A stretch of DNA of 64,000 nt, from positions 1-64,000 of the forward strand of contig JAJRXR010000069.1 in NCBI GenBank assembly GCA_024276195.1. Direction: 5' to 3'. Below, one piece after another: positions 12,406-33,464 of this stretch. The translations under genes and the position numbers were made by a program. Numbering within the stretch: the first letter of the stretch is position 1; every line of letters starts with the position of its first letter. A model generated the notes under the pieces. The model worked only from the letters and a program-made list of their open reading frames with translations. It was not told the DNA's origin and ran no database searches. This DNA is from Planctomycetota bacterium (GTDB lineage: Bacteria; Planctomycetota; Phycisphaerae; Phycisphaerales; UBA1924).

Positions 12406-12439
12406 ATCGTCGAGATCCTCTCGAATCTGGTGGTGTTGC

Positions 12440-15495: not shown

Positions 15496-15561
15496 GGATG
15501 TTTCTCCGAGGAGTGGAAGACGCCGCCAGCCCTTCCGGGCCGGCGGCGTGGGTGTGCGGTC

Positions 15562-17295
15562 TTAGAACGATTCGAGCGAGTCATCCTCGAACGGGATGAG
15601 GCTCTCGGCGTTGGCGCTTGAGGGGGCAGAGGCCTGGGCCGCTCTCGGGGCGGTTGCCTCGGGGGCGGGGCGCTGCAGCGCGGGCGAACCTGCGGAGGAC
15701 TTGCCCGTGAACTGGTTGACCAGATCGCGGAGCGAGCTGACCTGCGCCGCGGTCTGCTCGGCGTTGGACGCGAGCTCTTCCGAGTTGCCGGCGTTCTGCT
15801 GGGTGACCCGGTCGAGGTCGCTGACGCCCTGGTTGATCTGGCCGATGCCCTCGGCCTGCTCGGACGATGCTGCGGAGATTTCTCCGATGAGCGAGCTGAC
15901 CTTCTGGGTGTTGCCGACGATTTCTTCGAGGGCCTCGCCGACGCGCTGGGCGATGTTCACGCCATTATCAGCCCGCTTGGAGGATTCCTCGATCATCGCC
16001 GAGGTGTTCTTCGCGGCTTCGGCGCTGCGCATCGCCAGGTTGCGGACCTCCTCGGCGACAACGGCGAACCCCTTGCCCGCCTCGCCCGCACGGGCGGCCT
16101 CGACCGCCGCGTTCAGGGCAAGCAGGTTCGTCTGGAACGCGATCTCGTCGATCACCTTGATGATCTTGGATATCTCGGCGCTGGAGGTTTTGATCTCAGA
16201 CATGGCCGTGGACATCTCGGTCATCTCGCTCTGGCCCTTGTCGCCCGAGCGCATGCACTCTTCGGAGAGCGTGGACGCCTGGCGGCAGTTATCCGCGTTG
16301 CGCTCGGTCATGCTCGACATTTCTTCGAGCGAGGAGCTGATTTCCTCGAGGCTCGACGCCTGCTGAGCGGCGCCCTCGGACAGGGCCTGGCTGGAGCTGG
16401 CGATCTGCTGGGCGCCCGTGTCGATCTGATCGGCGCCGGCGCCGACCTCTTCGAGCATCTTGCGCAGACGCTCGGCCTGATCCTTGTCGCGCTGGCGCGC
16501 CTCGGCGGCCTCACGCTCGAGCTTCTTCTGTTCGGTGATGACCGTCCACGACGCCATGCACCCGATGAACTCGCCGTCGGAGTCGTACACACCGTCGGCC
16601 TGGAGGGTGACGTCTTCGCCGCCGATCTGGATCTCGGCCTTGTGCGGGAGGTACCGCTTGGGGTCGCCCAGGATCCGGCGCTGGATGGACGGGTCCTTGT
16701 GGAACACGTCGATGCAGGTTCCGAGCAGGTCGTCGACCTTGACGGGGAGCTTGTGCTCGATCGACCGCAGTGTCGTGATGGACGCCTCGTTCATGTACGT
16801 CAGGACAAGATCTTTGTCCACGAGCATGACGTTCAGCGGCTGCTGACGCATCATGTCGCTGACCTTCTGTGCCTCGGTCTCGATGTCGAGGTACGCGAGC
16901 TTCTGCATGGTGATGTCAGACGCGATCTTGACGACCTTGTAGGCCTTGCCGTTCTCATCGAAGATGGGGTTGTACGAGCCCCGGATCCAGATGGTTGTCC
17001 CGCCCTTGCCGACGCGGGGGAACTCGCCCTCCTGGTACTGGCCCCGGTTGAGCGCATTCCAGAACTCGCGGTACTCCGGGCTGGCGGCGTAGGCGCCGTC
17101 CACGAACATCCGGTGGTGCTGGCCCTGGATCTCGCCGAGCGTGTAGCCCACTGTCTCACAGAAGTTGTCGTTGGCGGTGATGATCGTCCCGTCCAGCTCG
17201 AACTCGATCATGGCCTGGAACTGGCTGAGCGTGTTCGTGAACTGGATGGCCTGGGACTGGTCGTTGGTGATGGATTCTGAGGTCTCGGTGCTCAT
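15562..17295 (-). CDS. Soluble methyl-accepting chemotaxis protein with two PAS domains
   Basis: 577 residues with no signal peptide and no transmembrane segment, so cytoplasmic. PAS 1 (about 20-140) has [17 protein letters not shown] and a PAC-like tail. PAS 2 (about 150-265) begins [18 protein letters not shown]. The signalling hairpin tip contains [19 protein letters not shown] and [13 protein letters not shown]. The C terminus is acidic ([10 protein letters not shown]). PAS domains of this kind often bind haem, FAD or small ligands; the ligand here is unknown. Next to cheW and cheA, it forms the cluster's only receptor. Confidence 0.93.
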
Positions 17296-17352
17296 GGCGT
17301 TGCGTCCTTGCTTCTGTGTCTTTCCGGGTGTGTCGGTGTATGTGGGGGCGTC

Positions 17353-17931
17353 TTAGACGGTGCGGGTTTCGGGGTTCTGGCTCGGAACGGGCGAGTCGGT
17401 GTCGGTCGAGAGGGTTTCCTCTCCGCCGAGGACTCGGTCGATGTCCAGAAGGATCACGACCTTGGTCGTTTCGCCAGCCTTGACCTTGCCCATGCCCATG
17501 ATCGAGTCGGCGCTCGCTGAGGATCCGAACCGGGGAGCCGGCTCGATCTGGTCCTGGCGGATGTCCAGAACCTCGCTGACGGTGTCAACGATGACACCCA
17601 TCTGGAGCTGGTCGCCCCCCTCGGAATCCTCGACATCCACGACGATGACGCACGTCGCCTCGGTGTACTTCACGGGGGGGAGCCCGAACTTCGTCCGCAG
17701 CTCGATCACGGGGATGATCTTGCCCCGCAGGTTGATCACACCCTTGATGTAGTCGGGGGTTCGGGGGAGGGGGGTGATGTCGATGAGGCCGATGATCTCG
17801 CGCACGCGCAGGATTTCGACGCCGTACTCCTCTTTCCCGAGTCGGAAGGTGAGGAACTTGTCGTCGTTCTCGTTGGTGCTGGCGAGGGTATCGGCCCCGC
17901 CTCGAGAAGATTGTGTGGGTGTGGTGGTCAT
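17353..17931 (-). CDS. cheW: CheW, receptor-kinase coupling protein
   Basis: 192 residues, a single CheW domain (about 22-170) with EEYGVEILRVREIIG, the PDYIKGVINLRGKIIPVIEL strand pair and a hydrophobic core typical of the family. Short unstructured tails flank it. It couples the soluble MCP to CheA. Only 3 nt separate it from the upstream cheA stop. Confidence 0.94.
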   Translation of the reverse strand: MTTTPTQSSRGGADTLASTNENDDKFLTFRLGKEEYGVEILRVREIIGLIDITPLPRTPDYIKGVINLRGKIIPVIELRTKFGLPPVKYTEATCVIVVDVEDSEGGDQLQMGVIVDTVSEVLDIRQDQIEPAPRFGSSASADSIMGMGKVKAGETTKVVILLDIDRVLGGEETLSTDTDSPVPSQNPETRTV

Positions 17932-17934
17932 GCG

Positions 17935-20538
17935 CTACTCCTTGGAGATATCTGAGGGGGAGTCGTTGCTTGTGGGCAGGTCCTGGGCCTGGGTGAGCAG
18001 GCCGACGACATCGATGATGGGGGCGACACGTCCATCGCCGAGGATGGCTCCGCCCGACACACCCCGCAGCGTGCCGACGCCCTTACCGAGTGTTTTGATG
18101 ACGACCTGCTGCTGGCCCAGCAGCTCGTCAACCTCGAGGCAGCACCGAGACCCGTTGGCCTCGAGCACAACAAACAGGCGTTGGTCGCTGTCGGTCTGGT
18201 CCTTGTCGATGTTGAACAGCTTGCTCAGGCGGTAGATTGGGAGCAGGGCGCCGCGGACCATGATCGTCTCGCCCCGCTCCATGACGGTCGAGATATCTTC
18301 GGGGTTCGGGCGGAAGCTCTGCTCGATCGAGAGCGTGGGCAGGACGTACCGGTGCGATCCGCACCGGATAACCATGCCGTCGATGATTGCCATGGTCAGG
18401 GGGAGGCTCAGCACGAACGTCGAGCCCTTGCCCGGGGCCGAGCGGATCTCGACCTTGCCGCGCAGGGCCTGGATGTTCCGGCGGACGACGTCCATCCCGA
18501 CACCACGCCCCGAGACATCGGTGACCTTTTCTGCGGTCGAGAAGCCGGGGGCGAAGATGAGCTGGAAGACTTCGCGGTCGGACATTTCGGCGCCGTCGCG
18601 TTCGGACGCGACAACACCGCGCTCGATGGCCTTGGACAGGATCTTGTCGCGGTGGAGGCCTCGCCCGTCGTCCTCGACTTCGATGATGATGGCGCCGCCC
18701 TTGTGGAAGGCGCGGAGCGTGAGCGTACCGGCCTCGGCCTTGCCCGCGCCGACGCGCTCGTCAGGGCCTTCGAGCCCGTGGTCGCAGGCGTTGCGGATCA
18801 TGTGGACCAGCGGGTCACCGATCTCCTCGACCACGTTGCGGTCGAGCTCGGTGTCCTCGCCCTCGATTTTGAGGGTGATTTCTTTCTCGCTCTTGGCCGA
18901 GAGGTCGCGGACGAGGCGGGTCATTTTCTGGAACGTGCCGTGGAGTGTCACCATGCGCAGCGACATGGCGACCTCCTGCAGGTCGCGGATAATCTTGCCA
19001 ACGTGCACGAGGTTGCGCTTGGTGCGTTGCTCGCTGAGGCTCTGAACGTTCGGGTCCTGGACCGCCATCTGGTGTCCGATGACGAGTTCGCCGACCATGT
19101 CAACCAGCCCGTCGAGGCGCTTGGTGTTGACCTTGACGGTCTGATCGGCGCGTCGTTTCTGGGATGGCGGCGCCTTCGGGGCGCTGGGGGGCTTGCCTGC
19201 GCTGGCCTGGGGCGCCCTCTTGGGCTCGTCCTGGGCGGGCTTGCTTGTTTCTGATGGCGTCTTGGCGGAGCCGCGGGCCGGGATGTCGCCCGACAAGGCC
19301 GCGTCGAGCCGGCGGATGATCTCGTTGTAGGCCCTCTTCTGCGGCGCCTCGCCATCTTCCAGAACGCCGATCAGGGTTGTGAGCAGGTCGCACGCGTTGA
19401 GCGTGAGGTCCAGGAACCCGGTGCAGACCTTGGTTGTCCCGTTGCGGGCCGCGTCGAGCAGGTACTCGGATTTGTGAGCCAGCTCCACGATCGGGGCCAG
19501 GTTCAGGAACCCCGCGACACCCTTGATCGTGTGGAACGCCCTGAAAACAGTGTTAATCAGCTCCGTGTTCTCGGAGTCGGTCTCGAGTTCGAGCAGGGCT
19601 CCCTCGGCCGCCGCGATGTGCTCGCGCGATTCGCTGATGAACTCGCTGAGCATCTCGTCGTCTTCGGCGACCAGCTCGACCACGCCCTCGTCCGATGGCG
19701 CAGGCGGCGCCACGTTAGCGCTGTCCGCAGGCTCGTGATCGGCGCCGCCGGGCGCCGGCGCGTCGGTGGGCGCCTCGTCGGCGGGCTCAGGGGCGACCCC
19801 CTCGTCCGGGGTGTCGCCGGCGGACTCGGCAGGCGCAGCGCTCCCGTCGGAGCAGCATGCGCGAAGGCTCTTGAGCAGCTTGTCGTTGGCAGTCCAGGTC
19901 CCGGCGCACTCGGGCGTCGCCTCTTCGATCAGGCGGCGCATCCAGTCCACAAGGTCGAGCACCTCGTCGGCGGGGAAACGAGCGTCCTGCTCGATCGCAC
20001 GATCGATTGCGCTCTCGGCCTCGTGAAACAGCGCCTGCGGCGCGTGGGCCGCGACAACGCCGCACTCGCCCTTGATCGTGTGGATTCGCCGGCGAACCTC
20101 GGCCACCGAGTCCGGCCCACCCTCGCCCGAAACGATCGAGAGCACCTGGGCCTCGATCTCGTTGAGTGTGTCTTCGCTCGAAGAGAGCCAGGCCTCGAAC
20201 AGGTCCGCGTCTACTTCGAGTGCGTCTTTGCTCTCGCTCGGGGGGGGTGGGGCGTCGAGCCCGCTGGCTGCGGCGTCCACCAGGTCTTGCAGGTAATCAA
20301 TGGTCTCGTGGACCTTGGCCAGCAGATCCTCAGGCGTCTCGGATTCTCGGAGTACGACGCTCTCGATCGCCTCGACGGCGCCGTCGACCATTTCGCAGGC
20401 GCCGTCGTGCTCACCGAGTTCGCTGGCCTCGCCCAAGGCGCTCAGCGCGTCGCGCAACTCCACGAGCCCGGGCGGATCATCCGCGTCGGTCTTCGCGGCG
20501 GACCGGGCGATCTCCTCGATTCGTGTCGTTAGGTTCAA
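17935..20538 (-). CDS. cheA: CheA hybrid-free histidine kinase with two Hpt domains
   Basis: 867 residues. There are two histidine phosphotransfer domains: Hpt1 at about 110-215 with RRIHTIKGECG, and Hpt2 at about 300-400 with RAFHTIKGVAGF. A Pro/Ala-rich linker, the dimerisation domain (VNTKRLDGLVDMVGELVIG), the HATPase (HMIRNACDHGLE; GRGVGMDVVRRNI) and a C-terminal CheW domain follow. Single-Hpt CheA proteins are more common; doubled Hpt domains occur in non-flagellar systems. It phosphorylates CheY and CheB. Confidence 0.94.
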   Translation of the reverse strand: MNLTTRIEEIARSAAKTDADDPPGLVELRDALSALGEASELGEHDGACEMVDGAVEAIESVVLRESETPEDLLAKVHETIDYLQDLVDAAASGLDAPPPPSESKDALEVDADLFEAWLSSSEDTLNEIEAQVLSIVSGEGGPDSVAEVRRRIHTIKGECGVVAAHAPQALFHEAESAIDRAIEQDARFPADEVLDLVDWMRRLIEEATPECAGTWTANDKLLKSLRACCSDGSAAPAESAGDTPDEGVAPEPADEAPTDAPAPGGADHEPADSANVAPPAPSDEGVVELVAEDDEMLSEFISESREHIAAAEGALLELETDSENTELINTVFRAFHTIKGVAGFLNLAPIVELAHKSEYLLDAARNGTTKVCTGFLDLTLNACDLLTTLIGVLEDGEAPQKRAYNEIIRRLDAALSGDIPARGSAKTPSETSKPAQDEPKRAPQASAGKPPSAPKAPPSQKRRADQTVKVNTKRLDGLVDMVGELVIGHQMAVQDPNVQSLSEQRTKRNLVHVGKIIRDLQEVAMSLRMVTLHGTFQKMTRLVRDLSAKSEKEITLKIEGEDTELDRNVVEEIGDPLVHMIRNACDHGLEGPDERVGAGKAEAGTLTLRAFHKGGAIIIEVEDDGRGLHRDKILSKAIERGVVASERDGAEMSDREVFQLIFAPGFSTAEKVTDVSGRGVGMDVVRRNIQALRGKVEIRSAPGKGSTFVLSLPLTMAIIDGMVIRCGSHRYVLPTLSIEQSFRPNPEDISTVMERGETIMVRGALLPIYRLSKLFNIDKDQTDSDQRLFVVLEANGSRCCLEVDELLGQQQVVIKTLGKGVGTLRGVSGGAILGDGRVAPIIDVVGLLTQAQDLPTSNDSPSDISKE

Positions 20539-21773: not shown

Positions 21774-22891
21774 CCCCGTGTCTCGACCAGCTCCAGCGTC
21801 AGGCGCTCGACCGCCTCGCGCACAACGCGGATCGACCGGGCGAACTCGCCCAGGTCCAGGCGTTCCTCGGGCGAGTGGTCCAGCGAGCTGTCGCCCGGGC
21901 CGTACGCCGCGATCGGGCAGTCCCACGCCGAGGCGACGACGTTCATATCGCACGTGCCCGTCTTGAGCTTGGGGTGGGGTCGCCCGCCGACGGATCGGAT
22001 AGCGCCCGTGACGGCGCGCACAACCGCGTCGTTGCGGCTCGACCGGTGGGCCGCCTCAAAGCCCCCGAGCCGGAGCGCAACACGATGATCCCCCCGAAAG
22101 ATCGTGCGCAACTCCGACCCGAGACCCTCTGGTGAGATCCACTGCGGGACGCGGAAGCTGCCGCGGATGACGGCGTGGTCCGACAACCCGTCCGATTCAC
22201 TGTTCATGCCGACGATCGTCGCCCGCACGGTGTCGAAGACCGTTTCCCGGTCGGCGTTGAGGCGGTCGATCAGGTCCATCGCGTCGCGCCACCACGCCAT
22301 GGCGATATCCGCGGCGCTGCGGTCCTCGCCCGCGCTGTGCCCGCAGGGCGTCGTGATCTCGATGGTGACGACGAGGCGTCCCTTGTACCCGAGCGTGACG
22401 CCGTCCCACCCGCTGGGCTCACCGATCAGGCATGCGTCCGGGCGCCACGTGTCGCGCAGGTGCTGGGCGCCGGGCGAGTCTTGTTCTTCCCCGAGGGCCG
22501 CCGCGACGCGCACGCGCACGCCCGCGGGCAGCGTCGCGTCCGAGGCGCCGATGAGCATCGCGGCGAGCGGTCCCTTGGCGTCCACGCTGCCGCGCCCGTG
22601 CAGGATCCCGTCCTCGATCCGCACCGGGATATCCCCGGGGACGGTGTCGATGTGCCCGAGGAGCACAATATCGAGATTGATCGGCCCGCCCCCAGACCGG
22701 CTCGCGATCCCGTTGCCGACATCGTCGATGTGGGCGTCGTACCCGAGCGTGCCGGCGTGCTCGACGAAGACCTCGACCGCGGGGCGCTCACTGGCGGTGA
22801 CGCTCCTGGTGCGCACCAGCTCGTGCAGGAAGCGCACGCTCGCGTCGCTTGAGGCGGCGTCCGGGTTGATGGCGGCGGGGGCTGTGTTCAC
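21770..22891 (-). CDS. lysK: LysK, [LysW]-lysine hydrolase (M20 peptidase family)
   Basis: About 373 residues from the GTG at 22891, which overlaps the lysZ stop (GTGA). M20 metallopeptidase signatures include [11 protein letters not shown] with metal-binding His and Asp, [12 protein letters not shown] with the bridging Asp, and GEEQDSPG with the general-base Glu. In the LysW pathway it frees lysine from the carrier protein as the last step. The whole LysW-X-Y-Z-K set is adjacent, which favours this role over DapE or ArgE. Confidence 0.85.
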
Positions 22892-23721
22892 GCGATCGCT
22901 CCCTCGAAGACTGTTCCACACCCGCTTCGAGCGTCGGCGACTGGGCTTGCGCCCGAGGCGGACCCGATGACGACGCGCCCGACGCCGCCGCTGAGTGCTT
23001 CCTCTGCGCCGAGCACCTTGTTCTTCATCCGCCCCTTGGCCGCCCGGCGAACCTCATCCAGGCTCGAGACGGTCTCGATCAGCGACGACCGATCCTCGGG
23101 GTCGCGCAGCACGCCGGGAACGTTTGACAGCAGCAGCAGCTCGTCGGCGCCCAGCGCCGCCGCCGTCGCCGCCGCCGCCCGGTCCGCGTCCACGTTCATC
23201 GCGACACCCTCGTCCGACATCGCCGGCGGCGTCAGCACGGGCGTCCGCCCATCATCGAGCAGCAGGCGCAAAAACCGATCGTCAACCCGCTCGACGCGTC
23301 CGCTCAGATCATCGCGGATCACCACCGTCCGCCCGTCCGCGTCCACGCTCCGGATCGCGCTCTTGCGTTTGCCCGTCCACAGCCCCGCGTCGATCCCCGA
23401 CAAACCCACCGCGTCCACACCCGCGCGGCGCAGCGTCTCGACGATACCCTTGTTGACCTTGCCGCAGTAGGCCATCTCAAAGATTTTGAGTGTCTCGCGG
23501 TCGGTCCGTCGGCTTGTGTGCCCGCTCGGGCTTGTGATAAAGGTGGGGGGGCGCCCGAGCTTTTCGCTGAGGATGTTCGTTTCGTGCGACCCGCCGTGGA
23601 CGAGGACGACGCGCACGCCGGCGCGCACAAGCCCCGCGATCTCGCCCAGCGCCGCATCGGGCTTGATGCCCTCGCCGCCGCCAATCTTGATGACAATCAG
23701 TTCGCTCATGGTTTCTCTCAT
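22888..23721 (-). CDS. lysZ: LysZ, [LysW]-aminoadipate kinase
   Basis: About 277 residues. The amino acid kinase fold opens [11 protein letters not shown], with VHGGSHETN for the substrate and [12 protein letters not shown] plus GLSGIDAGL, which resemble Thermus LysZ closely (recalled, not aligned by program). It phosphorylates the side-chain carboxylate of LysW-bound aminoadipate. The ATG at 23721 overlaps the lysY stop (ATGA); a second ATG four codons later is equally usable. Confidence 0.9.
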
Positions 23722-24746
23722 GCCGGGTGCAGGCCCGGGAAGCCCAGGCCCGCGCGTTCGTCGAGCCCTGTCGCCACGTTCATCGCCTGCACCGCGCTGC
23801 CCGCGGCGCCCTTGACCAGATTGTCGATCGCGCACAGCGTGACAACCCGCCCCGTCCGTTCATCAACGTCGAACCCGACATCCGCGTAGTTTGACCCCGC
23901 GAGCACGTTCGGGTCCGGCAGGCGGTGCAGCCCCGTCCGCTCGCGCACAACACGGACAAACGGCTCGCCCGCGTACGCCTCGCGGAAGAGCGTCCACAGC
24001 TCTTTGGTGTCTACCGGGCGCGTCGGGATGATGTGGGCTGTACAGAGCGCCCCGCGGACCATCTCGATTGCGGTCACGGACACGTCGAGTGTGAACTCGC
24101 CGAGCGCCTGGTGGACCTCGGCCGCGTGCCGGTGCCCGGTCAGCGCGTACGAGCGCACGGCGCCCGACCGCTCCGGGTGATGGCTCCCCGCGCTCGCCTC
24201 GGCCCCCGCCTCGGACGACCCGACCTTGATGTCCGCGATGACCCGCTCGATCAGCCCCGCCCGCGCCAGCGGCAGCAGCGCCAGGTTCATCGCCGTCGCG
24301 TTGCACCCGACGCCCGAGATCAGGCGTGCGCCCGCGATCGCCTCGCGCTCGAGCTCGGGCAGGCCGTACACCGCCTCGCCCAGACGCTCCGGGGCCGGGT
24401 GATCCCAGCGGTACCAGTCCTTGTATTGCCCGGACGATCGCAGGCGGAAGTCCGCTGATAAATCAATGACCGTCGTTCCGAGCCCGAGCCAGCGGTCGAT
24501 GTCGCCCGCCGCCTTCCCGTGAGGCATGCACAGGAACACCACATCGCTCGCCTCAACCTCGTCCGGCGACCGAAACACCAGCTCGCTCCGCCCGCGCATG
24601 TTCGGGTGGACCCGGTGGACCGGCTGGCCCGCGAGCTTGCGGCTCGTCACCGCCTGGACATCCACATCTGGATGGTCCGACAGCAGACGCAGCAGCTCCC
24701 CGCCCGTGTACCCGCTCGCCCCAACAATCGTCGCGGTGTGGCTCAC
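23718..24746 (-). CDS. lysY: LysY, [LysW]-aminoadipate 6-phosphate reductase
   Basis: 342 residues from the GTG at 24746 (GTGA overlap with lysX). The ArgC/LysY fold has the NADP motif IVGASGYTGGELLRLL and the catalytic Cys in ISGVGCNATAMNLAL. KVGSSEAGAEAS before the His-rich loop is LysY-like, as opposed to the GYSGAG of ArgC. It makes the LysW-bound semialdehyde. A separate ArgC lies 2.7 kb upstream in the arginine operon, so the two paralogues are specialised. Confidence 0.9.
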   Translation of the reverse strand: MSHTATIVGASGYTGGELLRLLSDHPDVDVQAVTSRKLAGQPVHRVHPNMRGRSELVFRSPDEVEASDVVFLCMPHGKAAGDIDRWLGLGTTVIDLSADFRLRSSGQYKDWYRWDHPAPERLGEAVYGLPELEREAIAGARLISGVGCNATAMNLALLPLARAGLIERVIADIKVGSSEAGAEASAGSHHPERSGAVRSYALTGHRHAAEVHQALGEFTLDVSVTAIEMVRGALCTAHIIPTRPVDTKELWTLFREAYAGEPFVRVVRERTGLHRLPDPNVLAGSNYADVGFDVDERTGRVVTLCAIDNLVKGAAGSAVQAMNVATGLDERAGLGFPGLHPA

Positions 24747-25618
24747 GCGCTCGCTCCCTCGGCTCGGTTCGGTACAAGGCCCAGCGCATACTCCGCGACG
24801 CGCCCGGGGATGTCCACGCCCGACGCGTCCACGCTGTTGCGAAACTCCATCGAGTGGTTCAGCTCGTTGACGAGCAGCCCGCGCTGCGGACACTCAAGCA
24901 GATCAACCGCGACGATGTCCCCGCCGACGCACGCCGCGGCCCGGCGCGAGATCTCGCCGACCTCGCCCGAGACATCAATCCCGCAGGTCGTCGCCCCGAG
25001 GGCCGTGTTGGTCAGCCAGTGCTCGCTCGAACGCGCGATGCCCGCGACCGCCTCGCCCCCGACGACGAACACCCGCAGGTCCCGCCCCGGCTTGGCGATG
25101 TGCTCCTGCACATAAAGAACCTGCTGCTGGGCCGAGCCGAGCACGGCGCGGTGCTCGATGACCGCCTCGGCCGCGTCCCGATCGTTCACCCGCGATACCA
25201 GGCGCCCCCACGAGCCCACCGTCGGCTTGATCACCGCCGGGTACCCGATCTTCTCGACCGCCTCGAGCGCCGACTCCTGCCCGAGCCCCACGCACACCCG
25301 CGGCGTCGGAACCCCGGCGCGCTCGAGCGCCAGACTCGTCCGCAGCTTGTCCGAGCAGATCTCGATCGTCTCCGACGGGTTGACGCAGCGAACGCCCATC
25401 GCCTCAAGAACCCGGACCGCCGAGAGCGAACTCGTCAGGCTCATCGACCGGTCCAGGACTAGGTCAACACCCGACCAGCGCGACGCGTCGGACAGATCGA
25501 ACACCTCGCTCCGAACATCCACGACGTCGCACACGACGCCCAGGCGCTCGAACGAGTCGAGCAGCATCCGCTCCTCGACACGAACCCTTGAATGCAGCAT
25601 CACCACTCGCACGGGCAT
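24743..25618 (-). CDS. lysX: LysX, LysW-aminoadipate ligase (ATP-grasp)
   Basis: 291 residues. An ATP-grasp ligase of the LysX/RimK group: YPAVIKPTVGSWGRLVSRV binds ATP, and LLVNELNHSMEFRNSVD near residue 252 holds the metal-binding Glu and Asn. The C-terminal part resembles Thermus LysX, which uses alpha-aminoadipate (recollection). It attaches the substrate amino group to the C-terminal Glu of LysW. A strong AAGGAGGG site precedes the ATG, 19 nt after lysW. Confidence 0.9.
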   Translation of the reverse strand: MPVRVVMLHSRVRVEERMLLDSFERLGVVCDVVDVRSEVFDLSDASRWSGVDLVLDRSMSLTSSLSAVRVLEAMGVRCVNPSETIEICSDKLRTSLALERAGVPTPRVCVGLGQESALEAVEKIGYPAVIKPTVGSWGRLVSRVNDRDAAEAVIEHRAVLGSAQQQVLYVQEHIAKPGRDLRVFVVGGEAVAGIARSSEHWLTNTALGATTCGIDVSGEVGEISRRAAACVGGDIVAVDLLECPQRGLLVNELNHSMEFRNSVDASGVDIPGRVAEYALGLVPNRAEGASA

Positions 25619-25637: not shown

Positions 25638-25832
25638 TTACTCGCCCCAGTCCTCTTCAACCTCGGGCGCCAGCTCCATCTTGATCGGGTCGCGGCTGAT
25701 CACCTCAAGCTCGGCGCCGCAGTCCGTGCACTGGGCGATCTGGCCCGACAACGGCGGGCGGTCGAAACTGATCAGCCCGGCGCACTCTGGGCACGATGCG
25801 TTCAGGGTTTCGTTGGTCGTGCTTGTGTCCAT
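25638..25832 (-). CDS. lysW: LysW, amino-group carrier protein
   Basis: 64 residues. Two zinc-binding knuckles (Cys-Pro-Glu-Cys near residue 14 and Cys-Thr-Asp-Cys near residue 35) precede an acidic tail ending EEDWGE. That is the defining C terminus of LysW, whose last Glu carries the biosynthetic intermediate. The negative body presents the substrate to LysZ, LysY and LysK. It is the first gene of the lys operon, with an AGGAG site 7-8 nt before the ATG. Its leader carries a candidate attenuator. Confidence 0.96.
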   Translation of the reverse strand: MDTSTTNETLNASCPECAGLISFDRPPLSGQIAQCTDCGAELEVISRDPIKMELAPEVEEDWGE

Positions 25833-25870
25833 GCCTTTGCTCCTGTCTTGTGTTGGTGTGTTTGTGATTC

Positions 25871-25906
25871 TGGAAAAAGAACAACCCCCGGCTCGCGTCC
25901 GGGGGT
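25871..25906 (-). terminator. Candidate attenuator terminator in the lysW leader
   Basis: On the minus strand, ACCCCCGG pairs with CCGGGGGT (arms at 25906-25899 and 25891-25884) around a 7-nt loop. The sequence TGTTCTTTTTCC follows directly. It lies between the leader reading frame and lysW, so if it terminates transcription it does so before the operon. The 5' arm plus loop can alternatively pair with the leader at 25968-25976 (9 perfect pairs). Confidence 0.75.
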
Positions 25907-25940
25907 CTGTCGCTTCTGATCTGGTGTCGTGAGTGTGAAC

Positions 25941-26030
25941 TCAGACCGATCGAAGCCGCAGGGATCGCCCGGACGCTCTCGGCGTCGCTTTGGCTTTCGC
26001 GGCTTTCTTGACCTGTCCGTACATCATCAT
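25941..26030 (-). CDS. Lys/Arg-rich leader peptide of the lysW operon (putative attenuator peptide)
   Basis: Up to 29 codons, with three consecutive ATG codons and then Tyr-Gly-Gln. The body holds VKKAAKAKA (four Lys codons in seven) and then five Arg codons near the end. GACGAGG precedes the ATGs, and spacing favours the second or third. The stop lies 35 nt before the terminator hairpin. Codons Ala-Ser-Gly (GCG TCC GGG) after the Lys run can pair with the terminator's 5' arm. Layout, composition and pairing fit a ribosome-stalling attenuator sensing charged tRNA-Lys. This is inference from sequence alone. Confidence 0.65.
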   Translation of the reverse strand: MMMYGQVKKAAKAKATPRASGRSLRLRSV

Positions 26031-26060
26031 CCTCGTCGCCCGGCGGACCCGGGCTGGGCA

Positions 26061-26119
26061 AGCCTATCCACCCATCGGGCCGCGTCAAGGTCCCTCATCA
26101 CCAAATTGTGCATATGCAC
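26061..26119 (-). promoter_or_regulatory. Candidate promoter and palindrome upstream of the lysW leader
   Basis: On the minus strand TTGACG (26083-26088) and TAGGCT (26061-26066) are spaced by 16 nt. They would start a transcript about 25 nt before the leader ATGs. Just upstream lies the perfect palindrome GTGCATATGCAC (26108-26119). Its half GTGCATA also occurs in the putative ArgR box of the argR promoter, so ArgR control is possible. Confidence 0.45.
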
Positions 26120-26133
26120 GCCCGGACACGCCC

Positions 26134-27438
26134 TCAGAGCCTCTCGGCGAGGCTCTCGACCCAGGCCTCCAGCTCATTGAGGCGCAGATCCGCACACGCG
26201 CCCGGGCTGACCCGAGCCCGCACACTCGCCCCGGCGTTGCCCTGGGCCAGCGCGTCGAGCTCCCGCCCAACCTGTTTATACGCATCGCGGAAGGCCATCC
26301 CGCCCACGCTCAGCTCCACCGCCCGGTCCGTGGCGAACATCGGCGGGTCGATCGCGTCGAGCATCCGGTCCGTGTGCAGCGTCATCCCCGAGAGCACGCG
26401 GGGCACGAGCGCCGAGGAACGCTCAACGGCGCGCAGCCCACGGAGCAACGCCCCCTTGCTCAGCTGAAGATCACGGTGGTAGCCGCTGGGCAGGCTTACG
26501 AGTTGTTGCAGCTCGCCCATCGCCCCGCCGACGACCGACGCGGACGCGCGCATCAACTCGGCGACGTCCGGGTTGCGTTTGTTGGGCATGATTGATGATC
26601 CGGTCGAGGCCTCATCAGCCAGCGTGACGAAGGCGAACTCCGCCGAGGCGAACAGCGTTAGATCCCACCCGAGGCGCCGAACGACCTGCGCCAGTTGCCA
26701 CGCGGCGCTCAGCGCTTGGAGTTCATGGGCGCCGCGCGTCGCCTGCGCGTGCATCGGATTGATCAGCAGTCGGTCGAACCCCAGCTCGCGCGCAACGCCC
26801 TCGCGGTCGAGCGCGATATTCACGCCATATCCCGCGGCGGTCCCGAGCGGGCAGGTGTTGATCCAGCCCGCGCTCAAGCGCAGCAGCTCCGCTGCGTCGC
26901 AGAACCCTTCTACGTACGAAGCCATCCAGAGCCCGACGCTCGAAGGAACTGCCCGTTGGAGGTGCGTGTACCCGGGCATGGGGTCCAGCTCGTGCTTTCG
27001 TGCCAAGGCCAGGGCCGCGCGGGCAGCGTCGAGGCTGCGCTCCGCGAGGCGATGGAGGGCTTCGATGGTGTACAGGCGCGTCGCGACAAGCACCTGATCG
27101 TTGCGGCTGCGCCCCAGGTGGACCCGCTTGCCGGCTTCGCCCAGGCGATCAACCAGGAACGCCTCGATCGCCGAGTGCCCGTCCTCATACCGATCATCGA
27201 GCGTGAACCGTCCATCACCGAGTCGGGCGCGCAGCTCATCGAGTGCCCGCTCGATCGCCCCGGTCTCATCGCCCGAGAGTAGCCCGATCCGCTCAAGACC
27301 GCGCACGTGCGCGAGTGTGGCGGTGATGTCGTACCCGATCAGCTCTCGATCGAGCACGACGTCGTCGCCCGCCATGAACCGCATCATCTCGTTGTCCGGG
27401 ACGCTGCCCGCGCCCTTGGCCCACACAGGTTCGCTCAT
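26134..27438 (-). CDS. argH: Argininosuccinate lyase
   Basis: 434 residues, fumarase/aspartase superfamily. The signature GSSIMPNKRNPD with the catalytic Ser loop is present near residue 285, and HLGRSRNDQV and YTHLQRAVP supply the other active-site regions. It splits argininosuccinate into arginine and fumarate, the last step of the pathway. It is the last gene of the seven-gene arg operon; its start overlaps the argC stop by 4 nt. No convincing terminator separates it from the lys promoter. Confidence 0.96.
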   Translation of the reverse strand: MSEPVWAKGAGSVPDNEMMRFMAGDDVVLDRELIGYDITATLAHVRGLERIGLLSGDETGAIERALDELRARLGDGRFTLDDRYEDGHSAIEAFLVDRLGEAGKRVHLGRSRNDQVLVATRLYTIEALHRLAERSLDAARAALALARKHELDPMPGYTHLQRAVPSSVGLWMASYVEGFCDAAELLRLSAGWINTCPLGTAAGYGVNIALDREGVARELGFDRLLINPMHAQATRGAHELQALSAAWQLAQVVRRLGWDLTLFASAEFAFVTLADEASTGSSIMPNKRNPDVAELMRASASVVGGAMGELQQLVSLPSGYHRDLQLSKGALLRGLRAVERSSALVPRVLSGMTLHTDRMLDAIDPPMFATDRAVELSVGGMAFRDAYKQVGRELDALAQGNAGASVRARVSPGACADLRLNELEAWVESLAERL

Positions 27439-28391
27439 GTCAGTCCCTCCGTCTCCTCAAGCCCGAGCGCGAGGTTGATGTTCTGAACCGCCTGCGACGC
27501 GGCGCCCTTGAGCAGATTATCCAGCGAGCACACGACGCCGATCCGCTTTGGATTGTCTTTGTTAACACTCAGCGCCCCAACCCGGGCTTGATTGGTTTCA
27601 ACCACGCCGCGCAGATCAACCGAGCCCTCTGCATCGAACTCGACCATCGCCGAGCCCGCGTAGGCCCGGTCGTACCGAGATGCCAGATCACCAACACTCA
27701 CAGGGTCACGCAGCTCGCACAACGCGGTCAGGACGATTCCTCGGAAGTGTCCGCCGACGCTCGGCGCAAAGCGCACGGGCGTCCCGAGATGGCGCGAGAC
27801 CTCCCGCTCGTGCAGGTGCCCCGTGATCGAATATGGGAGGACGTTTCCCCCGACAACTTCGGGATCGTTCTTCTCGCTGGGCGTTGTTCCCGCGCCGGAG
27901 TACCCGCTGACGCCGAAGCAGTGGGGGGGCGTCGCGCAGAGGTCGATGATCGGGCGCAGCGCCAGGTGCATCGCCGTGGCGTAGCAGCCCGGGTTGCTGA
28001 TGCGCCGGGCGGACCGGATCGCCCCCGCGTTGTGCTCGGTGAGACCGTAAACCCAGCGATCGTCGAATCGCCTGTCCGCGCTCAGGTCCAGCACGAGTGC
28101 CTGCGCCTGTCCCGATTCAATCGCGTCGATATACGCACCCGACATCCCGTTGGGCAGAGCCAGCACAACGACATCGGCATCGCGCTCGATCACGCCCGGA
28201 TCGCTCTTAAGAAACACCTGTCCACCGGGAAACCCGGGGACCTCGCCCGAGATTTCACGCCCGACGAGCGACCGCGAGGTGGCGTACGAAAGTTCCAGGC
28301 GCGGGTGATCGCGCACAAGGCGCAGCAGCTCGCGCCCGACAAACCCCCGGGCGCCGACGAGCCCGACGCGGAATGTGCGTTGCTCAGCCAA
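27435..28391 (-). CDS. argC: N-acetyl-gamma-glutamyl-phosphate reductase
   Basis: 318 residues if it starts at the TTG at 28391, which overlaps the argAB stop by 8 nt. Upstream sequence is inside argAB and unlikely to be coding in this frame. The NADP motif GLVGARGFVGREL, catalytic Cys in ISNPGCYATAM, and GVSGYSGAGTTPSEKN mark ArgC. It reduces acetylglutamyl phosphate to the semialdehyde. It is a distant paralogue of LysY in the neighbouring operon. Confidence 0.92.
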   Translation of the reverse strand: MAEQRTFRVGLVGARGFVGRELLRLVRDHPRLELSYATSRSLVGREISGEVPGFPGGQVFLKSDPGVIERDADVVVLALPNGMSGAYIDAIESGQAQALVLDLSADRRFDDRWVYGLTEHNAGAIRSARRISNPGCYATAMHLALRPIIDLCATPPHCFGVSGYSGAGTTPSEKNDPEVVGGNVLPYSITGHLHEREVSRHLGTPVRFAPSVGGHFRGIVLTALCELRDPVSVGDLASRYDRAYAGSAMVEFDAEGSVDLRGVVETNQARVGALSVNKDNPKRIGVVCSLDNLLKGAASQAVQNINLALGLEETEGLT

Positions 28392-29715
28392 CGACGGCCT
28401 CCTCAGCGTGAACCTCGAAGGAATCTTCGCGCCCCAGGGCGGACTCGATCGCTGTGTCAATTTCGCCGCGCCCGCGCAGCCCGCGCCAGAACACCACCCA
28501 CTCGGCGGTGCGGTGCATGCCATCGCTCCGCTCGAAGTACCACGGGTTGATCGCGTTGCCGGGGCGCGAGCGCCAGAACATGCGGGGTGTTGATTCTGTC
28601 AGTGTTCTCCAGAGCGACGCGCCGATGCCGGCGCCCTGGGCTTGGGCGGTGACGGCGAACTTGTCCAGGTACGGCGCCGGGCCGCTCCGCGTGAGTACCG
28701 CCGCGGCTGTGTAGTCTCCCGCGAGCACCGTCCGCTCGATAGCGATTGTTTCGAAGGAGCCCTGCCGGAGCGTTCGCCCGAAGCTCGTCTCGATCAAACC
28801 GCGCAGCCGATCCGTGTCCACCCCTTTGGCGCCGTCGAACACGCGGATGCGCACGCCGCGCCGGACCAGCGTCCCGTTGCCCCGGTGCGTGAACAGCTCC
28901 TGCGCAAGGTGCTCGGGCGAGGTGATCGAGACCGATGCTTGCGCGTCCAGACGCCCGAGCAGCGAGCTGATCTGTTCGAGCTTGAGCGCCATCCCGCCTT
29001 GCACCCAGGGCTCGCGCGAGAGGCGTTCGTAATCTTCCGCCAGGTTCACCGCCGGGATGATCTTCCCGCGATCATCCAGCAGCCCGCCGGTCGGCGTCAA
29101 GAACACGACCTTCCGCGGCTGGAGCGCTACAGCCAGCTCACGCGTCGCAATATCGGCGTTGATGTTGAGGATCTGCCCGGACCCCGTCTCGCCCAGGGGC
29201 GAGACGATCGGCAGATGCCCGCCCTCGATCGCGGAACGGATCACCGATGTGTCCACACCCCGCACCCGCCCGACAAACCCGAGCCCGGCGATCTCTGACC
29301 GCTGCGCCTCGAACACACCCGACGTGATCGGGCGCGCCCGCACGTCCAGCCGGCTCAGCGCATCGGCGAGCCTCGCGCCCTCATCCTGAAACACCTTGCG
29401 CGCTATGCCCAGGATCTCGGGCGTTGTGACGCGTTGCCCGTCGATCCAGTCGCACCCGAGCCCCTTGTGCTCAAGGGCTCGGCTGAGCTGGGGGCCGGCG
29501 CCGTGGACAACCACCGGGCACAGCCCGACGCGCCACAAAAACGCGAGCGCCGACGCGAGCTCGTCGAGGCTGCTCTCGAGTATCCCGCCACCGACCTTGA
29601 CGACCGCGAACCGGGCGGAGTCCACGCCGCTGAAGCTGGCGAGGTACTGCTCGATCTCGCGCCGCGAGCCGAGGTTGTGCAGCAGGTTGACGATGATGTC
29701 GTGGCACGGGTCCAT
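28384..29715 (-). CDS. Bifunctional N-acetylglutamate synthase/kinase (ArgA-ArgB fusion)
   Basis: 443 residues. The N-terminal amino acid kinase domain (about 1-285) contains VVKVGGGILE, VVVHGAGPQLS and INADIATRELA. A GNAT acetyltransferase domain of about 150 residues follows, ending with MFWRSRPGNAINPWYFERSDG. This is the fused enzyme of Xanthomonas and relatives, which makes and phosphorylates N-acetylglutamate and is normally feedback-inhibited by arginine. It sits between argE' and argC with overlaps of 1 and 8 nt. Confidence 0.93.
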   Translation of the reverse strand: MDPCHDIIVNLLHNLGSRREIEQYLASFSGVDSARFAVVKVGGGILESSLDELASALAFLWRVGLCPVVVHGAGPQLSRALEHKGLGCDWIDGQRVTTPEILGIARKVFQDEGARLADALSRLDVRARPITSGVFEAQRSEIAGLGFVGRVRGVDTSVIRSAIEGGHLPIVSPLGETGSGQILNINADIATRELAVALQPRKVVFLTPTGGLLDDRGKIIPAVNLAEDYERLSREPWVQGGMALKLEQISSLLGRLDAQASVSITSPEHLAQELFTHRGNGTLVRRGVRIRVFDGAKGVDTDRLRGLIETSFGRTLRQGSFETIAIERTVLAGDYTAAAVLTRSGPAPYLDKFAVTAQAQGAGIGASLWRTLTESTPRMFWRSRPGNAINPWYFERSDGMHRTAEWVVFWRGLRGRGEIDTAIESALGREDSFEVHAEEAVVG

Positions 29716-30779
29716 CAGGCGCCCCCGCTCGTGCTGAACAGGCGCCGGTACACCGAAGCCGCGATCTGAAGATCGGCAAGCGGGACAAACTCGCCCGGCG
29801 CATGGGCCTGCGCGATGTCGCCCGGGCCAAACACAACCGCAGGAATCCCCGCCCCCGCGAACAACGCCGCTTCCGTCCAGAAGTCCACACCCGGGGCGAT
29901 CTCAACGCCAAGCGTCCCGCCTAATGCTCGGCTCGCGGGCGTCTCGCGCAGCGCTGGCGCCGTGAACCGTGTCGTCCACTCCGCGTTCGAGCCCTCGGGC
30001 GTCACCGCCCGGATCGCGCGGAGCATCCCCTCCGCATCAGCCCCCGCCCCCGGGCGAACACCGAAGCGAACCCGCGCGCTCGACGCGACCATGTTCGGCT
30101 TCGTCCCCCCCTCGGCATGCCCGAGGTTCAGTCGCCAGCTCTCCCCGGCGCGTTCTGCGTCCGCTGCGGCCTCGAGCGCTCGCGCCCCCCACACCACGGC
30201 GTCGTGCAGCGCGCTGCGCCCATTCCCGAGCGACGCGTGCCCGCCCTGCCCCCGGAACTCCACCTGACAGCTCACGATCCCGCGGTGCTCAAGCACGGCG
30301 CAGGCGCCTGTTGGCTCCGACACGATCACACCCAGGTATACAGCACGCCGCTCATCAAGAAACGTGCGCACACACGCGCTTGGTCCTCCCTCCTCGTCCG
30401 TGGTAAACAGCACCGCCGCGTCTCCGTTGCTGGCCTCGCACGCCGCGAGGATGCACGCCGCGGCCCCTTTGATGTCGCACGCGCCCAGCCCGATCGCCTG
30501 CCCATTCTCAACCAGCAGATCCAACGGATCCCGGTTCCATCCACCATCTGGCGGGACCGTATCAAGGTGACAGTTCACCAGTGTGTCTGCGCTGCCGCGC
30601 CGCGCGTACAGGTTTACCGACCCAGCGCCCAGGTCGCGCAGCTCGATCGCAAACCCGCACGAGTCAAGAATCCCGCGCACGTACACGAGCGCAGCGTGGT
30701 CCGCCCCGATCGCCCGCGGCGGGTTCGTCGTGTCGCACGCGACAAGTTTCCGAAGATGTTCGGTTATGCGTCCGAGCAC
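29715..30779 (-). CDS. N-acetyl-L-citrulline deacetylase (ArgE')
   Basis: 354 residues from the GTG at 30779, which overlaps argG by 16 nt. M20 metallopeptidase with NCHLDTVPPDGGW, GLGACDIKGAAA and TTDEEGG carrying the metal and base residues. The stretches CDTTNPPRAI and VFGPGDIAQAHAPGEFV match the Xanthomonas acetylcitrulline deacetylase as recalled. Together with an acetylornithine-type carbamoyltransferase in the same operon, this points to acetylcitrulline and not acetylornithine as substrate. Confidence 0.85.
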   Translation of the reverse strand: MLGRITEHLRKLVACDTTNPPRAIGADHAALVYVRGILDSCGFAIELRDLGAGSVNLYARRGSADTLVNCHLDTVPPDGGWNRDPLDLLVENGQAIGLGACDIKGAAACILAACEASNGDAAVLFTTDEEGGPSACVRTFLDERRAVYLGVIVSEPTGACAVLEHRGIVSCQVEFRGQGGHASLGNGRSALHDAVVWGARALEAAADAERAGESWRLNLGHAEGGTKPNMVASSARVRFGVRPGAGADAEGMLRAIRAVTPEGSNAEWTTRFTAPALRETPASRALGGTLGVEIAPGVDFWTEAALFAGAGIPAVVFGPGDIAQAHAPGEFVPLADLQIAASVYRRLFSTSGGA

Positions 30780-31975
30780 GCCGCCCCCCGCGCTCCATGG
30801 GCCGCCATCGCGCTCGCCAGCCCGCCGATCTTGATGAACCCCGTCGCGTCGGCGCTCGTCCAATCGGCGCTCTGGGCGTACACCGCCCCGTCGCACCGCA
30901 GGATGTTCTCCGAGTCAATGGCCACCGCATCGCACCGCCCGCCCCGAGTCTCGATGACCACCTCGCCGGTGACGCGCCCCTGCGTGGACCGGATGAACAC
31001 CTCCAGATCCTCCCGCAAAGGCTCGTAAAACAGGCCCGAATACACAAGCTCGGTCCACTTCCGGGCCGCGATCGGCTTGAACCGGTTCTGCTCGCGCGAG
31101 AGAACGCACTCTTCAAGCGCTCGATGCCCCGTTAGTAGCGCCTCAAGCCCGGGCGCTTCGAACACGATCCGACCCTTGAGCCCGATGACCGTATCGCCCG
31201 TGTAGATCCCGCGTCCAACGCCGTACGCTCCGAGCAGCGCGTTGAGTTCACCCAGCAGCGCCGCTCCAGCGAGAACGCGCCCATCGAGCGACACCGCCTC
31301 CCCGCGCTCGAACCCGATGCGCACGCGCATCGCCCCGCCCGGCAGCTTGTCCGCAGGCGCGGTGAGGCGGTACGTCTCGTCCGATGGCGCCCCGAACCCG
31401 TCGATTTCCGACCCCGAAACCGTCACGCCCAGCAGATTCTCATTCATCGTGTAGCGTTTGACATCCTCGGGCGTCTCAAACCCGAGCATGCGCAGCGCCT
31501 CCATCTCGTACACACGCGGCTCATCGCACAACCCCTGGATCTCACGCACCGGCGCCACGATCGGCAGATCCGTCAGGCACCCGATCGACTGGTCGAACCG
31601 GACCTGGTCGTTGCCCATCGCGGTACACCCGTGCGCGATCGCCCCGGCGCCGATCGACTCGGCAAGCTTCACCGCCCGAGCCGCGATGACGTACCGATCC
31701 GAGCACAGCAGCGGGTACTGGTCCTGGTACTTCGCCCCGCCCATCACGAAGGGCGTGACAAAGCTCTCCCACAACTCGTCCCCCGCGTCCTGCGTGATGT
31801 GCTCCTTCGCGCCAAGGCTCAGAGCCCGTTGCTCGATCTGCGCTCGGTGCTCGGCGCTGACGCCGCCCGTATCGACGAACAGCGTGACGACATCCCACCC
31901 CTGGTCCTTGAGGTATGGAACGCAAAAGCTCGTGTCGAGCCCGCCCGAGAACGCCAGCACCGCAGTCTTGCTCAT
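30764..31975 (-). CDS. argG: Argininosuccinate synthase
   Basis: 403 residues. The N-terminal PP-loop LAFSGGLDTS binds ATP. GCTAMGNDQVRFD and the long C-terminal multimerisation part are those of ArgG. It joins citrulline and aspartate. The subtype resembles ArgG of Xanthomonas-like operons (GNDQVRFD where GKGNDQVRFE is common elsewhere). The ATG overlaps the argF' stop by 4 nt. Confidence 0.96.
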   Translation of the reverse strand: MSKTAVLAFSGGLDTSFCVPYLKDQGWDVVTLFVDTGGVSAEHRAQIEQRALSLGAKEHITQDAGDELWESFVTPFVMGGAKYQDQYPLLCSDRYVIAARAVKLAESIGAGAIAHGCTAMGNDQVRFDQSIGCLTDLPIVAPVREIQGLCDEPRVYEMEALRMLGFETPEDVKRYTMNENLLGVTVSGSEIDGFGAPSDETYRLTAPADKLPGGAMRVRIGFERGEAVSLDGRVLAGAALLGELNALLGAYGVGRGIYTGDTVIGLKGRIVFEAPGLEALLTGHRALEECVLSREQNRFKPIAARKWTELVYSGLFYEPLREDLEVFIRSTQGRVTGEVVIETRGGRCDAVAIDSENILRCDGAVYAQSADWTSADATGFIKIGGLASAMAAHGARGAACSDA

Positions 31976-33009
31976 CTGATCTCTCCCGCGACGCCCAGCA
32001 GCGTCGTCATCAGCGCCTTCTGCACGTGCAGCCTGTTCGCGGCCTCCTCGATCACCATCGACCGGGGCGAGTCGAACACCGCGTCCGTCGCCTTCACGTT
32101 CCGCCTCGCCGGCAGGCAGTGGCTGAACACCGCGTCGCTGGTGCGCGCCATCTTGGCCTCATCAACAATGAAATGCTTGTTCGCGTCGCGCACCGGTTTC
32201 TCTCGCTCCCAGTCGCCGTAGAACGCGAGCGAACCCCAGCTCTTGGCGTAGACCGCGTGCGCCCCGTCGTAGGCGCTCTCGATGTCGTGCGACATCCCAA
32301 ACGACCCGCCCGAAAGCTCCGCGTTCTTTGTCGCGGCGTTCATGTACCGCTCGTCGAGCGCGAACCGCTCGTCCGGGCACAGCAGTGTGACGTCCATCCC
32401 CAGCTTTGTCGCGATCATCACCGCCGAGTTCGCGACCGCCGTGTTCAGAGGCTTGGGGTGGTACGTCCACGTCAGGACGTATTTTTTCCCGCGAAGCTCG
32501 CCCAGGCGGTCGCCCAGCGCCATCGCGTGCGACAGCTCCTGGCACGGGTGCGTGATGGTTTCCATGTTGATTACAGGGACGGTCGCGTGGGCCGCGAAGG
32601 CCCGGATGACATGGTCCCGGCGATCGAGCGACCAGTCCTCGAACATTGGGAACCGGCGCACCGCGATCAGGTCGCAGTACTCGCTGAGCACCCGGGCCGC
32701 TTCGCGGACGTGCTCCTCGGCGGCGCCGTCCATCACCTCGCCATCGCCGAACGCCATCTCCCACGCGCCCTTGCCCGGCTCGAGCACCACCGCGTGCGCC
32801 CCGAGCTGGAACGCACCGATCTCGAACGACGCCCGCGTCCGCAGCGACGGGTTGAAAAACACCAGCGCGATCGTCTTGTTCTTGAGCAGATGCTGCACCG
32901 GGTTCTGTCGGAGCGCGCGGGCGCGGTCGATGAGTGTCGTGAGGTTTTCGATGCTCCAGTTCTGGGTTGTGATGAAGTGGGGGGGCGAGTCGGGCGCGGT
33001 GCGTGTCAT
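31972..33009 (-). CDS. N-acetylornithine carbamoyltransferase (ArgF')
   Basis: 345 residues. Carbamoyl phosphate site FFNPSLRTRASFE, then the diagnostic ETITHPCQELSHAMALGD, TWTYHPKPLNTAVANS and FSHCLPARRNVKATDAV. These stretches are nearly those of Xanthomonas acetylornithine carbamoyltransferase (recalled) and lack the ornithine-binding SMG loop of ordinary OTCases. It makes N-acetylcitrulline. Its ATG at 33009 overlaps the argR stop (ATGA). Confidence 0.93.
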   Translation of the reverse strand: MTRTAPDSPPHFITTQNWSIENLTTLIDRARALRQNPVQHLLKNKTIALVFFNPSLRTRASFEIGAFQLGAHAVVLEPGKGAWEMAFGDGEVMDGAAEEHVREAARVLSEYCDLIAVRRFPMFEDWSLDRRDHVIRAFAAHATVPVINMETITHPCQELSHAMALGDRLGELRGKKYVLTWTYHPKPLNTAVANSAVMIATKLGMDVTLLCPDERFALDERYMNAATKNAELSGGSFGMSHDIESAYDGAHAVYAKSWGSLAFYGDWEREKPVRDANKHFIVDEAKMARTSDAVFSHCLPARRNVKATDAVFDSPRSMVIEEAANRLHVQKALMTTLLGVAGEIR

Positions 33010-33464
33010 GGCGTGTCGCCTTCGCTGCGCAGGAGCTTGCCCAGGGTCGCGCACACCCGCCGGGCGGATGTGCTGCCCGTTGTCGCGATCATGACCGTAT
33101 CGTCGCCAGCGATCGTGCCGACCACGCCCGTCGGGGGCCAGCGGTCGAGCGCATCACCAATCAATCCTGCGTGCCCGGGCGCCGTGCGCACCACCACCAT
33201 GGAATCCGCCTGACGGATCATCGTCACATGACGCGTGACCACGATGCGCAGCTCGCCCGGTCCATCAACACCCAGCGGCGTCGTCGGGAGCACATACCCC
33301 CCAGGCCCCTTGACCACGCCCATCGTCGCCAGATCACGCGAGACCGTCGCCTGCGTCACCTGCTCGCCGCGCTCGCGCAGCGCCGCGACCAGCTCGTCCT
33401 GGTCCCCGATGCGCCGCGTTCGCAGCAGCTCGCTCAAGATCTCACGTCGCCGCTGTCTGCCCAT
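33006..33464 (-). CDS. argR: Arginine repressor ArgR
   Basis: 152 residues. An N-terminal winged helix has VTQATVSRDLATMGVVKGPGGYVLP, here cited in part, and a C-terminal arginine-binding oligomerisation domain has GTIAGDDTVMIAT. It heads the arg operon. The ATG at 33464 was chosen over an earlier ATG at 33482 because the promoter's -10 box (33471-33476) lies between them. The mRNA is then leaderless. Confidence 0.92.
   Translation of the reverse strand: MGRQRRREILSELLRTRRIGDQDELVAALRERGEQVTQATVSRDLATMGVVKGPGGYVLPTTPLGVDGPGELRIVVTRHVTMIRQADSMVVVRTAPGHAGLIGDALDRWPPTGVVGTIAGDDTVMIATTGSTSARRVCATLGKLLRSEGDTP

Follow-up and report, generated by a model that had tools for sequence, protein, structure and literature searches.

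We analyzed a 64,000-nucleotide stretch of planctomycete DNA (referred to here as the window), which carries a lysW-X-Y-Z-K operon on its minus strand. The operon begins with lysW, encoding the amino-group carrier protein (25832-25638; TIGR01206, 64.4 bits with a cut-off of 53.2), followed by lysX for the LysW-aminoadipate ligase (25618-24743; TIGR02144, 312.6 bits, cut-off 275.6), lysY for an ArgC-type reductase (24740-23718, start approximate, longer ORF 23718-24893; TIGR01850 argC, 369 bits, cut-off 233.6), lysZ for the [LysW]-aminoadipate kinase (23715-22888, start approximate, longer ORF 22888-23835; NF010659, 337 bits, cut-off 223), and lysK for the [LysW]-lysine hydrolase (22921-21770; NF003367, 376 bits, cut-off 363). 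For LysX, LysZ, and LysK, the models whose cut-offs are exceeded are of the lysine type. Directly 5′ of the lysW unit, on the same strand, lies an arginine cluster of the acetylornithine-carbamoyltransferase type (26134-33054), with genes for acetylornithine carbamoyltransferase (argF′), argG, an argE-like gene, a fused acetylglutamate kinase, argC, and argH. Downstream of lysK (11329-20538), the translations alone point to chemotaxis-like genes, including a response regulator-methylesterase, a methyl-accepting protein, and a CheA-like kinase.

All features of the lysW leader are on the minus strand, between the end of argH (26134) and the start of lysW (25832). A leader ORF of 29 amino acids at 26030-25941, recognized from its sequence and its conservation among relatives, encodes the peptide MMMYGQVKKAAKAKATPRASGRSLRLRSV; it has three candidate ATG starts in one frame (26030, 26027, and 26024) and a stop codon at 25943-25941. 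Four Lys codons (AAG at 26009-26007, then AAA at 26006-26004, 25997-25995, and 25991-25989) fall within a run of seven, as a first-pass annotation of this DNA had described, whereas the later Arg codons that it gave as five number four in our count. The hairpin with T-tract proposed there was found by a terminator scan: an intrinsic terminator hairpin at 25907-25883, with a T-rich tract at 25882-25872 and GTTCTTTTTC as the sequence directly past the hairpin. The proposed 9-nt complementarity between leader and hairpin is exact, joining GCGTCCGGG at 25976-25968 (segment 2, the 5′ strand of the putative antiterminator) to CCCGGACGC at 25903-25895 (segment 3, its 3′ strand), the latter within the 5′ arm and loop of the terminator (segments 3:4). 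We identified one element that the first-pass annotation did not contain: GACGC at 25986-25982 (segment 1) can pair with GCGTC of segment 2 (25976-25972), which gives a 1:2:3:4 layout. In GC-rich DNA, a 9-nt complementarity proves little by itself, and the fold of the window leader alone is mildly unusual (z of -1.8). The complementarity and the leader of the window stand above chance because they are conserved in relatives.

We searched 151 genomes of the window organism's family and found lysW in 87 of them. The regions upstream of lysW were all examined by script, and 84 of them were full length (at least 300 bases). A leader with at least three Lys codons is present in 82 of these 84 regions, 81 recognized by script and one, at locus L066, by eye, because at that locus the script took a tRNA arm for the terminator. 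By its look, a tRNA gene lies directly 5′ of the lysine leader in this genome (G105). In the two other full-length regions (L017 and L072), the ORFs contain two Lys codons. The script picks the ORF with the most Lys codons in each region, therefore the counts need to be read against shuffles and control regions, here 601 regions that precede other long ORFs of these loci. At least four Lys codons within 12 codons were found in 65 of the 84 lysW upstream regions, in 0.5% of shuffles, and in none of the 601 control regions; at least three within 12 codons were found in 80 of the 84, in 3.6% of shuffles, and in 3.0% of control regions. The first-pass annotation had let its reading depend on whether the Lys codons and the pairing persist in relatives, and both are conserved. 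Beyond the family, at least four Lys codons within 12 codons occurred in one of 15 LysW loci from other families of the phylum (L098 to L112), counted with a slightly different region limit from that of the main count. At L098 (G325), a Lys-rich short ORF, MNAKHIPSLALKGKKAKAKRGLRSGRWGACSF, with AAG codons precedes lysW, and no terminator was seen by eye. At L100 (G282), lysW is preceded by an ORF of 19 codons, two of them for Lys, and this ORF is followed by a long hairpin, the 5′ side of which looks complementary, by eye, to the end of the ORF.

The promoter-like boxes named in the first-pass annotation, TTGACG (26088-26083) and TAGGCT (26066-26061) separated by 16 nt, are present in the sequence as described. 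A strict promoter scan of the window did not list them, as they have 8 of 12 matches with a threshold of 9. Nevertheless, the same layout (TTGACn, 16 or 17 nt, then TAnnnT or a near form) stands 5′ of the leader in many relatives. Scores of at least 8 of 12 were reached in 44 of the 66 leader regions tested (8.8 expected from shuffles) and scores of at least 9 in 27 of the 66 (1.7 expected). Based on this sequence and layout, the boxes at 26088-26061 are probably the lysW unit's own promoter. The distance from the predicted -10 box to the chosen leader start is 7 to 10 nt in 18 of 65 regions listed (e.g., L039, L036, and L023), and on account of this short distance some leaders may be nearly leaderless messages.

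The script detected a terminator in 75 of the 87 lysW upstream regions, one of which is the tRNA arm at L066. For 71 of the 87 loci, we computed the duplex energy between the segment after the Lys codons and the 5′ arm and loop of the terminator from the same genome; the other 16 were omitted, as the script detected either no terminator or one that had no leader ahead of it. The mean energy was -23.1 kcal/mol for own-genome pairs, compared to -18.5 kcal/mol (sd 0.28, 40 rounds) when hairpins were swapped between genomes and -17.0 kcal/mol (sd 0.36) when the segment was shuffled. We then examined individual base pairs in an alignment (A3) of 35 of the 36 short-type leaders among the 71 loci, with L053 omitted. 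Changes on both sides were present in five of the eight antiterminator pairs, amounting to 11 double-change cells where shuffles, which ignore kinship, gave 2.5; none of 500 shuffles reached 11. The antiterminator co-varies with the terminator across the family.

Segment 1 gives a different picture. The 1:2 pairing is present in 95% of cells across the 35 aligned sequences, and its covariation is no better than that of shuffles. A loose search for hairpins past the Lys codons in the 71 loci found no mean excess (mean score 12.66, compared to 12.49 for shuffled sequences, sd 0.46), with scores above 12 in 53 loci where 41 were expected. We attribute this to the fact that short GC-rich stretches nearly always allow a hairpin, and consider the fixed-column count more telling for the 1:2 pairing.

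Lysine is encoded differently in the leaders and in the operon itself. The 82 leaders contain 324 AAA and 36 AAG codons, whereas lysX-aligned stretches from 85 loci contain 26 AAA and 349 AAG codons. (The lysX stretches took the place of an earlier control, the longest downstream frame, which gave 114 AAA and 414 AAG.) In A3, AAA occupies the three core Lys positions in 33, 35, and 33 of the 35 rows, respectively, while the third positions of the codons between them vary; a 6-nt insert in 12 rows brings an extra AAA codon in 11. With AAA kept while neighboring third positions vary, it is the codon that is conserved, as expected of a leader that reads tRNA supply.

The position of segment 2 relative to the Lys codons is also nearly constant. 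In 33 of the 35 sequences of A3, segment 2 starts 13 nt past the first nucleotide of the final Lys codon, the exceptions being the window (15 nt) and one other sequence (12 nt). A ribosome with that codon in its A site would have its front edge at about the point where segment 2 begins. When the stretch that a stalled ribosome would occupy was removed, the RNA up to segment 3 was predicted to pair 2:3 in 33 of 35 sequences. In the absence of a ribosome, RNA of the same extent still paired 2:3 in 23 of 35; segment 1 by itself does not prevent 2:3 pairing in most aligned leaders. Folds of the whole window leader preferred 2:3 with the ribosome stretch removed and 3:4 with the stretch present. 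Across the alignment, minimum-energy folds of the finished transcript contained 2:3 in just nine of 35 sequences when a stalled ribosome was assumed and in 12 of 35 when none was. These folds do not fit a switch that is thermodynamic alone; it would need to be kinetic, with the outcome decided during transcription.

These features suggest the following model. Transcription would start just 5′ of the short leader ORF. Under lysine shortage, a ribosome would stall at the AAA codons with its front edge just before segment 2, which would stay available for pairing with newly made segment 3; the 3:4 terminator would then fail to form, and RNA polymerase would enter lysW. With plentiful lysine, the ribosome would move across segment 2 and beyond it, so that the terminator would form and end transcription. 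Much of this was anticipated by the first-pass annotation. Its proposal that a stall at the last Lys codon leaves the antiterminator segment free agrees with the 13-nt spacing and the covariation, and its extension of trp/his logic to a LysW-type lysine operon gains support from the conservation and the co-varying pairing. Its suggestion that a ribosome entering the Arg codons covers the segment survives in part: covering belongs to our model, and the role of the Arg codons does not, as they are unconserved and arise from a 2-nt difference described below. We conclude that the lysW-X-Y-Z-K operon is very probably regulated by a ribosome-mediated transcription attenuator that responds to the availability of charged lysyl-tRNA, and we infer that the leader is translated, that ribosomes stall on it, and that lysine is the cellular signal.

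A leader peptide could also act through its amino acids, stalling the ribosome as a nascent chain upon binding lysine or another ligand, in the manner of TnaC and tryptophan. In most of the 35 aligned leaders, the core Lys run does lead into the same short motif, an acidic residue or Gly and then Ala. However, residues other than Lys vary widely, and the ends of leaders from other genera are unrelated. The varying distance to segment 2 (13 nt in 33 leaders, 15 and 12 nt in one each) shows that some leaders change frame past the Lys run, and the conservation of AAA rather than AAG points to codon reading. We consider nascent-peptide arrest improbable, although it is the strongest of the alternatives to attenuation by lysyl-tRNA supply.

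The signal read by the leader can be judged further from the genes that stand behind it. One relative (G067) has lysW, X, Y, Z, K, homoaconitase, a homoisocitrate-dehydrogenase-like gene (below the cut-offs of its models), and homocitrate synthase on one strand, a lysine route that looks complete from its sequence. Homocitrate synthase (E at most 1e-40) was detected in 21 of the 87 genomes with lysW and in none of the 64 others (Fisher 4.2e-6, kinship ignored), and 19 of the 21 score above the model cut-off. Conversely, lysA above cut-off was present in 12 of the 87 genomes with lysW compared to 32 of the 64 others (Fisher 1.7e-6, kinship ignored). In nine of the 21 genomes, homocitrate synthase lies at most 10 kb from lysW: eight by coordinates on the same contig (G006, G057, G067, G076, G097, G101, G121, and G131), and one, G133, presumably so, where the gene is on another, short contig and the genome belongs to the same genus as G067. 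Where the gene was above cut-off and in a separate operon with usable upstream sequence, a Lys leader was present in six of six cases, with AAA for every Lys codon. Three of these leaders precede homoaconitase and read MQILASKKGKSKRLKRPAIAFRA or close to it (G051, G093, and G116), and three precede homocitrate synthase and have three, four, and four Lys codons (G060, G104, and G124, respectively). A terminator follows all six, five recognized by script and that of G060, the loop of which is too long for the script, by eye. Upstream sequence was unusable in G129, where it is cut just before the terminator, and in G147, G149, and G106, where the contig runs out; in G119, the sequence ahead of homocitrate synthase resembles the end of a lysK gene. 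No leader was found before a distant homocitrate-synthase-like gene in G025 (33% identity). Because separate homocitrate-synthase and homoaconitase operons have Lys leaders of their own, these six relatives appear to possess a lysine regulon.

This distribution bears on the idea that arginine, either by itself or together with lysine, is what the leader senses, an idea that the four Arg codons in the window and the arginine cluster directly upstream might suggest. The window leader differs from those of relatives by 2 nt right behind the last Lys codon, which puts it in another frame from there on, and the Arg codons of the window are incidental for that reason; the Arg run is not conserved among relatives' leaders. 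In the two nearest relatives, G038 and G113, which belong to the same genus and have a LysW with 89% identity, the leaders read MFEFKTKAAKVKDAECVRAIPAAAMV and MLEFKTKAAKVKDAECVRAIPAASMV. In addition, Lys leaders precede homocitrate-synthase operons, which serve lysine. Arginine sensing is slightly less probable still than peptide arrest.

The hairpin might instead be the ordinary terminator of argH, with a short ORF nearby by chance and no regulation. The end of argH (26134) does lie 5′ of the hairpin, and a terminator there would be unremarkable. However, argH precedes lysW in just five of the 82 relatives' loci with at least 900 nt of upstream sequence, yet the leader and terminator persist, which indicates that the leader travels with lysW and not with argH. 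When 24 genomes were searched with a covariance model built from the leader (R1), each gave one strong match (E below 1e-13), directly 5′ of lysW by coordinates, with next best matches at E 6e-4 or weaker; because most of these genomes contributed to R1, the search is informative for uniqueness and not for finding leaders. Given also that no control region had such an ORF and that the pairing co-varies, we regard a chance arrangement behind argH as scarcely credible. A lysine riboswitch or T-box, each a common kind of lysine-responsive RNA element in bacteria, has an equally negligible likelihood, as no such Rfam family matches the window at gathering score and a permissive RNA-family search of 25830-26140 returned just a chance-level snoRNA match (E 2.5).

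The proposed attenuator has known counterparts elsewhere. The trp and his attenuators of enterobacteria operate by ribosome-mediated transcription attenuation, and the planctomycete leader resembles them in having a leader ORF in which cognate codons are clustered, a terminator, a mutually exclusive antiterminator that begins just past a ribosome stalled on those codons, and a presumably cognate biosynthetic operon. It differs in using lysine and AAA codons, in having a short segment 1 (5 bp) right after the Lys codons, and, in some relatives, in a predicted transcription start close to the leader ATG. The first-pass annotation knew of no described case for a LysW-type operon. This was probably wrong, as a 2005 article in J Biol Chem reportedly described leader-peptide attenuation of the lysine cluster, for the aminoadipate route, in Thermus thermophilus. 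The two systems would share a leader peptide that attenuates a lysine cluster of this route; the planctomycete leader belongs to a different phylum and precedes lysW and, in some genera, homocitrate synthase or homoaconitase as well. The lysine riboswitch (L-box, RF00168) likewise has lysine as its metabolic signal, but it has no match in the window, and sensing here would go through translation. A literature search of limited depth found nothing on point for lysine or LysW attenuation and no report of such attenuation control in this phylum. That the leader is a lysine attenuator of the known trp/his design, in another phylum than Thermus, is well supported by the sequence comparisons.

The metabolic context of the leader varies among genomes. 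No homocitrate synthase was detected in 66 of the 87 genomes with lysW, including the window genome. In the window genome (G000, 91% complete), G038, and G088, we detected no homocitrate synthase, LysA above cut-off, or DapF; in G083 and G110, we detected no homocitrate synthase or LysA above cut-off, and DapF was present in both. A DapL model (TIGR03542) found no gene above cut-off in nine genomes. These same five genomes (G000, G038, G088, G083, and G110) each encode one HMGL-like protein and have kept LysW and the lysine leader. We considered whether the HMGL-like protein of G000 and G083 is a hidden homocitrate synthase and rejected this, as a family scan identified it as hydroxymethylglutaryl-CoA lyase. 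The operon's product in genomes without detectable homocitrate synthase is uncertain; the conserved AAA codons argue that it still serves lysine. A broader reading, which we offer tentatively and hold to be possible but rather doubtful, is that the family manages its lysine supply through an attenuation regulon, made up of the lysW operon and any separate homocitrate-synthase operon, each behind a Lys leader of its own, in which, where homocitrate synthase is undetected (the window genome included), the leader would govern a shortened LysW route fed by α-aminoadipate that is imported or otherwise made.

Overall, comparison across this family argues strongly for ribosome-mediated attenuation specific to lysine. 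Many of its genomes keep the leader and the LysW enzymes without a detectable source of α-aminoadipate, and the leader codons argue, independently of enzyme annotation, that the LysW clusters serve lysine rather than arginine.
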